Of a stretch of 64,000 bases of DNA, positions 7,582-64,000 are shown piece by piece. The stretch is taken from positions 62,001 through 126,000 of the IMG/VR virus record IMGVR_UViG_3300046507_000773. The stretch is one strand, 5' to 3'. The position numbers and the translations under genes are program-made. Numbering within the stretch: the first letter of the stretch is position 1; every line of letters begins with the position of its first letter. This DNA comes from a virus. The notes beneath the pieces were generated by a model. That model ran no database searches. It was not told the DNA's origin and was given only the letters and a program-made list of their open reading frames with translations.

Positions 7582-7610
7582 TCAACCCTCTTATGAAAAG
7601 AGAAGCTACC

Positions 7611-7922
7611 ATGAATAACGTCAAAGATATCATCAACCTCATCATCAACGCTTCGGTCATGTCGATCGAGGAACAACTTCTCGAGACCTACCGCCACGAG
7701 GCGGACGTCACGTTGGCCGAGATGGACAAGTGCGCTCGCGCTTACTACAAGCGCTATCCGAACCAGGAAGAGTTCGCGCACAACCAACTCAACATCATCG
7801 AGTGCAGCCTGATGGTTGAGCGCCTGATCGAGCGTAAAGAGATCATCGAATTGGACTGCTTCATCCGCGTGATGGAAAAAGAAGCCTACCGCATGCGCCT
7901 GATGACGCCCCGTCGCCGTTAA
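7611..7922 (+). CDS. Unknown charged helical protein, 103 aa
   Basis: I chose ATG 7611, which has AGAAG at proper spacing; ATG 7593 is in frame but poorly placed. The 103-residue product is strongly helical and charged, with a basic C-terminus (RMRLMTPRRR). It is followed after 15 bp by another helical small protein, consistent with a co-transcribed cluster. No family recognised. Confidence 0.6.
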   Translation: MNNVKDIINLIINASVMSIEEQLLETYRHEADVTLAEMDKCARAYYKRYPNQEEFAHNQLNIIECSLMVERLIERKEIIELDCFIRVMEKEAYRMRLMTPRRR

Positions 7923-59277: not shown

Positions 59278-60714
59278 ATGCTGAGCAAACAAGCACTGCA
59301 AACTGCGCTTCCACTGGCTGATGTCCTGGAGTCCGCTCGCGTCTACGTCGAACCGGCACCGGGCTCGCTGCTCGAAGCACTGGTACAAGCCACCCGCACT
59401 CCGTTCGGCGGCATGGACCCGAAATACGTCCCGTCGATCGAAGACGTCGAATACCTGGCCAACATGCAGGATTCGACCACCGGCATCTGCCAGCACGACA
59501 TGGTGATGGACGAGATCTCGGCCAAGGGTATCGAAGGCGTGCAAGCGCTCTTGACCCATGCCCGTACCGTCGTGGCACCGGCTGTCATCAGCCTGGTCAA
59601 GAAGGTCGAAGCGGAACTGGAAAACACGACCAAGAGCGCGCTGGGCGCCATGGAAGTGATCGCCGTTCACTACCCGGCCGTCGTCTACGTCGACTCGTTC
59701 AAGCGCGAAGTGCGCAAGTACGACGAGATCGCTTTCGATGATCCGGATCTGGCAATGCGTTGCCCGACCGTTGCGACTTCCGACATCCGTGAACTGATGA
59801 AGACCGGTTCCGGCCAAGCCGACGGCGCTGTCGAAGAATGGCTCGCCTCGAAAGGCGAATCGTTCCTGATCGATGTCTGGGAAAACATCTTCCAGATCAA
59901 GCAGTCCGGCCTGAACGAAGCGACCACCCGTCGTCTGCGCAGCTACATCGACCATCCGGAACACGGCATGGACTGGGCCATTGCGGTCTACCTGATCGCG
60001 CGCAAGCTGCTGGACCAGGGTCCCCTGGACGACACCGACATGGCGATCTCCCGTTTCGAAGCACTGATGGGCGCTTACCGCGATCAAGCAGCGCTGGCCC
60101 TGTGCCGCGAACTGGACAAGCTGGAAACCGCAGCCAAGACCGGCCGCCTGGTGATCCGTGCGACCGAGCAAAAGGTCTGGGTCGATTCGGCCATCTACGA
60201 CGCATGGCTCGAAGCCGGCGGCGAGATCGAAGTCCTGTACGGCAACCTGCTGGACGGCAACAACCGCCTGACCACGCAGCAGCTGGACGAAGGCGCCGCT
60301 TTCCTGAAAACCCTGTGGATGCGTCACGAAAGCATCACCAAGGTGGCCGATGAAAACAAGCGCTTCTCCCGCGCCCTGAACTTCATCGACGCTTACTTCC
60401 GCGCCTCGGTTGCCGAGATGACGGACGAAGAGCGTCTGAAGGTCACGCCGGAAGCCGTGATGAACATCTTCGCGCAAGAACTGCGCAAGGTGCAAACCTC
60501 GGATCTGGACTGCCTGTACACCACCTGCCTGAAGCTGGTGTGCCGTGCGCGCTTCCCGTACAGCGACGCTGAAGAGCTGCTCGCTAGTTCGACGGCGATC
60601 CAGAAGAAGAACCCGACCATGGACCCATCCGAAGCCATGCTGATGGCCAACCTGCAATACGTGGCGAAGTGGATGACCGAACAATTCGTGGTCAAGCCAT
60701 TGTCGCCGATCTAA
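59278..60714 (+). CDS. Abundant virion protein, 478 aa (phiKZ gp177-like position)
   Basis: ATG 59278 follows GGAGG. The 478-residue protein is almost all helical, acidic, and has an extremely optimised codon set, the strongest of the long genes here. An N-terminal LEALVQATRTPFGG region is followed by long helices, with IDHPEHGMDWAIAVYLIARKLL in the centre. No catalytic motif is seen. Its position between beta and the protease matches a phiKZ virion protein, and the codon bias implies many copies per particle. A head or inner-body component is inferred. Confidence 0.6.
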   Translation: MLSKQALQTALPLADVLESARVYVEPAPGSLLEALVQATRTPFGGMDPKYVPSIEDVEYLANMQDSTTGICQHDMVMDEISAKGIEGVQALLTHARTVVAPAVISLVKKVEAELENTTKSALGAMEVIAVHYPAVVYVDSFKREVRKYDEIAFDDPDLAMRCPTVATSDIRELMKTGSGQADGAVEEWLASKGESFLIDVWENIFQIKQSGLNEATTRRLRSYIDHPEHGMDWAIAVYLIARKLLDQGPLDDTDMAISRFEALMGAYRDQAALALCRELDKLETAAKTGRLVIRATEQKVWVDSAIYDAWLEAGGEIEVLYGNLLDGNNRLTTQQLDEGAAFLKTLWMRHESITKVADENKRFSRALNFIDAYFRASVAEMTDEERLKVTPEAVMNIFAQELRKVQTSDLDCLYTTCLKLVCRARFPYSDAEELLASSTAIQKKNPTMDPSEAMLMANLQYVAKWMTEQFVVKPLSPI

Positions 60715-63214: not shown

Positions 63215-63736
63215 ATGGCAACCGCAACCGAAAAAGACGTCCTGAAAGCTGAAGCGAAAAAGACCTTCGACGACCTGTCGCCGGAAGTCAAGAAGACCGT
63301 CGAAGCTGCCCGCGGCTACGTCACCATCTCGAACGAAGGCACCCCGGCCGTCGACCCCGCCACCTACGAGCGCCTGCTGGAACTGAACAACTCGAGCAAG
63401 GAAGCCTACATCGGCGTCCAGGAAGCCAATGCCGTCATCTACCCGGCACTGGCCTACGTGTTCGGCGAAAAGGGCATCCCGGTCATGGCCGAGAACGCTG
63501 ACGTCAAGCAGATCACCGGCGTCGTCCCGTGCTTCGGCAAGGACACGATCTCGGTCGGCCTGAAGCGTTCGTCGCCGTACACCCTGCGCGATTCCGAAGG
63601 CACCGTCACCGGCACCGGCACGAGCTTCGGCACCATCAGCGTCGACCACAAGATCTACGCCACCAAGACCCGCGGCGAACTGGCCAAGGTGAAGAACCTG
63701 ATCGGCGAACTCGGCGCAGCTAGCCTGTCGTCGTAA
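63215..63736 (+). CDS. Abundant unknown protein, 173 aa
   Basis: ATG 63215 lies behind AAGGAAA. The 173-residue product starts with a charged helix (TEKDVLKAEAKKTFDDL) and has a beta-rich body (GKDTISVGLKRSSPYTL, GTGTSFGTISVDHKIY). No membrane span or enzyme motif. Codon use is nearly maximal for C/G-ending codons, indicating one of the most abundant proteins of this phage. The tandem RNA array begins 6 bp after its stop, so it may share this gene's strong transcription. A decoration or other structural protein is a guess. Confidence 0.55.
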   Translation: MATATEKDVLKAEAKKTFDDLSPEVKKTVEAARGYVTISNEGTPAVDPATYERLLELNNSSKEAYIGVQEANAVIYPALAYVFGEKGIPVMAENADVKQITGVVPCFGKDTISVGLKRSSPYTLRDSEGTVTGTGTSFGTISVDHKIYATKTRGELAKVKNLIGELGAASLSS

Positions 63737-63742
63737 AGCATC

Positions 63743-64000
63743 GGCGCGCGTCGCCGTAGGGAGCTAGCTTCCCCTGTAGCTGCTTGACGTCCGTGCCTTT
63801 GTGCGAGAGTGACGTGGCTGCTCAAATCTTGCCCCCATCGTGGAGCGTGTAAAAGTTAGGAAGCCGTCCGATGGCCGGTTCCCGTAAAGGAAGTTAGCTT
63901 CTCCTGATATCGCCAGCGCTTAGCCTTTGTGCGAAGAAGCGCTTGCGGGGCAAAGACCACAAGGTCAAAGTTAGGGTCTGGGTGACAACGCCCGGACCCG
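63743..64000 (+). ncRNA. Tandem array of a structured RNA module (at least two copies)
   Basis: Two homologous units follow the 63215 gene. Each has TAGCTTC-CCTG (63765-63776 and 63895-63906), a hairpin presenting GCCTTTGTGCGA in its loop (63795-63806 and 63923-63934), a small hairpin, AAAGTTAGG (63852-63860 and 63967-63975), and a closing bulged hairpin (63859-63882 and 63974-63999). Stems are kept while bases differ: ACGTC/GACGT versus AGCGCTT/AAGCGCT around the loop, and GGAA-CCG/CGG-TTCC versus GGGTC-GGG/CCC-GACCC at the end. A GGCG/CGCC hairpin before the first unit suggests the array starts at 63743. The last base fits the start of a third unit beyond the window. It is not tRNA-like. 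Function unknown. Confidence 0.7.

Follow-up and report, generated by a model that had tools for sequence, protein, structure and literature searches.

Genomic setting of the RNA pair

The stretch of DNA analysed here (the window) comprised 64,000 nucleotides, G000:C1:62001-126000, within a virus record of 226,810 bases. Sequence past its right edge was read from the segment L002 (G000:125000-140000), in which a position plus 62999 gives the window position. Two tandem units of a structured RNA, each of about 115-125 nt, were located at the right end of the window on the + strand, between a 173-aa gene and a 105-aa gene without annotated function. To the left of the pair were genes for a phiKZ-type RNA polymerase beta-like protein (1432 aa), two proteins with matches to phrog_3841 and phrog_2926, and a head maturation protease (phrog_3014, E 2e-84), in an order that agreed with annotated relatives. 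The nearest cultured-phage match to the head protease was that of Burkholderia phage FLC9, at only about 51% identity, indicating that this is a phiKZ-like jumbo phage to which nothing in the collections is closely related. None of the two genes on each side of the units matched toxin families in Pfam or PHROGs; the ToxI-like repeats of type III toxin-antitoxin systems are about 35-50 nt long.

The 173-aa gene (63215..63736, + strand; phrog_9746, function unknown), whose 3' UTR the pair would form, had the strongest codon bias in the window. Its effective number of codons (ENC) was 25.6, the lowest among 69 window ORFs, which agreed with the extreme bias that an earlier note on this DNA had ascribed to the gene upstream of the RNA and suggested heavy expression. 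Given this bias and the position of the units, high-level expression of the RNA pair is plausible as well. The second strongest bias (ENC 30.3) was found in a 478-aa gene of unknown function at 59278-60714 (phrog_3841), which probably encodes another abundant protein.

Architecture of the two units

Unit 1 (63759..63884, + strand) carried the ordered blocks that it shares with unit 2. It opened with a local hairpin, P0 (GGGAG-CUAG-CUUCC, 63759..63772), which includes the conserved TAGCTTC at 63765-63771. The next hairpin, P2 (63787..63815), was formed by ACGTC at 63787-63791 and GACGT at 63811-63815 and enclosed the conserved loop CCTTTGTGCGA at 63796-63806. The conserved block AAAGTTAGG followed at 63852..63860 and was able to pair with the CTAGCTT of P0 over 7 bp (helix P1). 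The unit ended in a bulged terminal hairpin (GGAAGCCG...CGGUUCC, 63859..63882) with no U-run after it.

Unit 2 occupied 63889..64000 on the same strand, with its final base at 64001, one past the window edge. Its P0 (GGAAG-UUAG-CUUCU, 63889..63902) contained TAGCTTC at 63895-63901 and differed from that of unit 1 by two one-sided changes, with pairing retained. P2 (63915..63943) consisted of AGCGCTT at 63915-63921 and AAGCGCT at 63937-63943 around the same conserved loop CCTTTGTGCGA, here at 63924-63934, and the shared block AAAGTTAGG lay at 63967..63975. The terminal hairpin (GGGTCTGGGTG-ACAA-CGCCCGGACCC, 63974..63999), with a stem of 11 bp, is a presumed intrinsic terminator; it was followed by the spacer GCCCCTA and then by T6 at window-equivalent positions 64007-64012 (L002:1008-1013). 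A strict terminator scan did not call this hairpin because of the 7-nt spacer ahead of the U-run. TATGCCG or TGTCG was present after terminator U-runs at L002:1008-1020 and in the relatives L006, L007, L008 and L010, and in several relatives was partly complementary to an upstream GGCATA; these motifs could make the terminator hairpin longer, or a phage TATG promoter might overlap them.

Similarity of the units and compensatory change

The segments GGRAGYTAGCTTCYCCTG, GCCTTTGTGCGA and AAAGTTAGG were common to both units in the same order, and alignment of the units placed TAGCTTC, GCCTTTGTGCGA, and AAAGTTAGG with the G-TA/CCCG link in register. The local-alignment score was 25.5, whereas dinucleotide shuffles gave a mean of 10.7 (sd 2.0) and a maximum of 20.0 (n=2000), so the similarity of the units was far above chance. 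All four blocks that had been described as occurring twice in identical order were recovered. Spacing between the blocks differed by 2 and 13 nt across the units. These differences are not multiples of 3, which ruled out a coding reading of the units. Divergence was very uneven: the 12-nt and 9-nt blocks were identical, and the stems had turned over with compensation, showing that the exposed single-stranded blocks and the loop were better conserved than the stems in the alignment of the two units.

The P2 stems surrounded the same invariant loop GCCUUUGUGCGA in a shared register, at distances of 3 and 4 nt. In this register five pairs were present in both units, three of them with changes on both sides. 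A shared-register 5-bp stem arose in shuffled flanks at a frequency of 8e-5 with Watson-Crick pairs and 0.019 when G-U was allowed, supporting the proposal that ACGTC/GACGT and AGCGCTT/AAGCGCT had changed with pairing kept. Covariation had also been proposed for the terminal stems; these gave no base-by-base alignment between the units and their homology was not demonstrable. The evidence for covariation comes from a single 5-bp stem shared by two paralogues, and formal covariation statistics require more than two sequences.

RNAalifold applied to the core alignment gave a z of -2.9, with 5 of 300 shuffles equally low. Unit 2 alone (z -3.4) and the whole 283-nt stretch (z -3.0) folded more stably than shuffles, and P2 of unit 2 had a pair probability of 0.94-0.97 across six of its seven pairs. 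Unit 1 alone was no more stable than shuffles (z -0.26); its P2 was not part of the minimum-energy fold, being 3.2 kcal/mol worse, with a pair probability of about 0.01.

Alternative helices

The helix P1, formed by (C/U)UAGCUU and AAGUUAG, closed the core of each unit with 7 bp and was nearly invariant between the units, though weakly beyond chance (shuffle p 0.035). P1 and P0 are mutually exclusive, and in unit 2 P0 was favoured by about 6 kcal/mol. A pseudoknot of 7-8 bp, in which the CUUUGUGCG loop pairs with the segment ahead of AAAGUUAGG, could form in both units; it was unsupported against shuffles (p 0.2-0.3) and was set aside.

Copy number and search for homologues

The window edge had been taken to suggest a further copy. 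Extension to the right revealed only the remainder of the hairpin, GCCCCTATTTTTT and then the next gene, and no third unit was found beyond the edge or anywhere in the 226.8-kb record, giving two copies in total. Rfam 15 produced no match at the gathering threshold in the window, and a search at E<=1 of the surrounding 3.3 kb returned one unrelated sub-threshold match only (L002:1658-1734). ARAGORN found 0 tRNA or tmRNA genes in the window and in L002. The description in the earlier note of a previously unrecognised structured RNA array therefore stands for the structured RNA and its lack of an Rfam match; what was expected to be an array growing on is a pair closed by a terminator-like hairpin.

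In six related phages the 173-aa gene has orthologues, with 21-24% identity for the five of six that were aligned; behind each came one terminator only and no unit, and the same held for two more phages with a gene at the same place. Since a single terminator comes right after the orthologous gene in the relatives, the units represent extra sequence between gene and terminator. A covariance model built from the units (R1), a check that the earlier note had proposed for other jumbo phages, gave nothing significant against 21 related jumbo-phage records. The best match among them (L053, E 0.2-0.7) fell in an RNA between gp49 and the DNA polymerase in G007; homology was rejected because it was this matching part that G007 and its close relative G011 had conserved least. 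Exact-pattern scans of IMG/VR and 84,980 GTDB genomes yielded chance-like matches within reading frames and none with the blocks plus the stem, and DNA searches of phage and plasmid collections returned no match to the units. With no homologue found, covariation could not be extended past the two units. The RNA pair appears to be an orphan and lineage-specific as far as the collections show, from which records very near this genome may be omitted.

Interpretation of the RNA pair

Homology of the units, conservation of their loops, compensation in a stem and a location with a stop codon on one side and a terminator-like hairpin on the other are established at the level of sequence. Only 22 bases separated the stop codon of the 173-aa gene from unit 1, leaving little room for a promoter of its own, and unit 2 closed with a hairpin and U6; a co-transcribed 3'-UTR RNA is therefore the simplest reading. 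We favour, at an even level of confidence, a tandem-duplicated structured non-coding RNA that forms the 3' UTR of a probably very highly expressed gene and is likely processed to one or more stable RNAs. The units would be transcribed by read-through from the 173-aa gene, the transcript would end at the hairpin and U6 behind unit 2, and host or phage RNases would trim it to stable small RNA(s). Loops that are exposed and invariant, together with stems free to change if paired, indicate recognition of the loops by a protein or other RNAs; the CCUUUGUGCGA loop, UAGCUUC and AAAGUUAGG may be the segments that make this contact, and with two copies each transcript would offer twice as many binding sites. 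The units probably arose by duplication within the lineage of this phage, with the 3' hairpin of unit 1 possibly a former terminator.

A complementary site was noted at window positions 7597-7613 (AAAGAGAAGCTACCATG), where the 9-nt GAGAAGCTA (7600-7608) could base-pair with the conserved UAGCUUCUC of unit 2 and overlaps a Shine-Dalgarno-like site just ahead of an ATG. This candidate target may be due to chance.

The same elements could instead act in cis, as tandem riboswitch-like or put-like antitermination elements that set read-through past the unit 2 terminator from the 173-aa gene into the 105-aa gene. Both units lie directly ahead of a terminator-like hairpin and a downstream gene, aptamers typically combine conserved loops with variable stems, and within each unit AAAGUUAGG can form 7 bp with UAGCUU (shuffle p 0.035), in competition with P0; judged by eye, a pairing of AAAGUUAGG with CCUAUUUUUU behind the terminator stem is possible too. 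However, unit 1 has no U-run and is not itself terminator-ended, neither P0 nor P1 is involved in the 11-bp terminator stem of unit 2, and P0 is energetically preferred to P1 in unit 2. The downstream gene has no annotated function and no other genome searched uses the element. We regard regulation in cis as rather unlikely. A hallmark of tandem riboswitches, an aptamer recurring across species beside genes of one pathway, was not seen, with no homologue in the GTDB and IMG/VR scans or the 21 phage records. The HK022 put RNAs and tandem riboswitches also place two structured elements ahead of a terminator, but put RNAs are located in early leaders and not after a structural-type gene, and the units showed no sequence or family match to either. 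A new phage RNA device, in which two tandem, independently evolving switches (P0 versus P1, with a 12-nt recognition loop) would sense a ligand or phage protein and set termination or processing downstream of the most codon-biased gene, is a speculative idea to which we assign little probability.

Several strong hairpins, placed after the gene whose codon usage is most extreme, might also serve simply to hold back 3'-to-5' exonucleases and make a very abundant mRNA longer-lived, with no role in trans. One terminator suffices in the relatives, however, and hairpins of this kind need no invariant 12-nt loop or invariant single-stranded blocks, which here were conserved above the stems; invariance of the loops speaks against a plain stabiliser, and we consider this explanation unlikely. 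That the units occur in one genome only, and that tandem duplication is common, would fit a recent non-functional insertion or repeat, such as the end of a mobile element or duplicated debris, with recent duplication alone behind the shared blocks. Debris would diverge evenly, though, and the pattern of identical 12-nt and 9-nt blocks beside compensated stems argues against it, as does the absence of more copies in the genome and of any plasmid or prokaryote-genome match; this origin is improbable.

For the favoured 3'-UTR RNA, the closest known counterparts are RNAs that share a transcript and terminator with an mRNA. Small RNAs derived from bacterial 3' UTRs resemble the pair in this respect and in their link to a highly expressed gene; the units here differ in being tandem, diverged and two in number. 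A Grad-seq study of phiKZ reportedly named two ncRNA candidates. The phage phiKZ makes an RNA of about 100 nt, seen by Northern blot and assumed to be a processing product of the PHIKZ298 3' UTR, with two stem-loops of which the second is a possible terminator (PMC8545117). That RNA comes from the same broad jumbo-phage group and likewise sits behind a stop codon and ahead of a terminator hairpin, but it belongs to another gene and is single copy as described; the likeness is drawn from its description, and the units here are predictions from sequence. The non-coding RNAs that nucleus-forming jumbo phages make have received little study, and a duplicated structured RNA beside a highly biased gene offers a concrete, testable candidate.

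A structured RNA upstream of the DNA polymerase

Following up the rejected R1 match in L053 drew our attention to the gap between the orthologue of phiKZ gp49 and the DNA polymerase (gp50 orthologue). This gap spans about 300-450 nt, with no evident gene and an intrinsic terminator at its end. In G000 it lies outside the window, at C1:155817-156155 (L120:1897-2228), with a further small ORF between the RNA and the polymerase. The sequence was also present in G001, G002, G005, G007, G008, G010, G011, G013, G014 and FLC9 (loci L123, L121, L119, L112, L113, L114, L115, L116, L122 and, for FLC9, L106). In FLC6, SURPRISE13, pVa-21, Eowyn, LucasX and 201phi2-1 the gap was short or otherwise occupied, and Rfam had no match near threshold for the gap RNA. 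Alignments of three subgroups compared with column shuffles gave z values of -4.9, -7.2 and -4.8, and double-sided changes occurred in 13 of the 84 predicted pairs of subgroup A3. We consider this gap to hold a strongly structured RNA gene that is better supported than the RNA pair. About ten related jumbo phages share this gene, the cultured Burkholderia phage FLC9 among them. It may matter more than the pair, and as a second RNA it suggests a wider uncatalogued set in this phage group.

In phiKZ-type phages the gap contained a much shorter sequence, bounded by two terminator-like hairpins, as seen in fnug (phiKZ species; L124:2780-2980) and phiHQ (L127:2798-2980). The two gaps shared a stretch resembling GUAAGUUGAUGUGCUACCUCUCAAU, which is possibly a small RNA.
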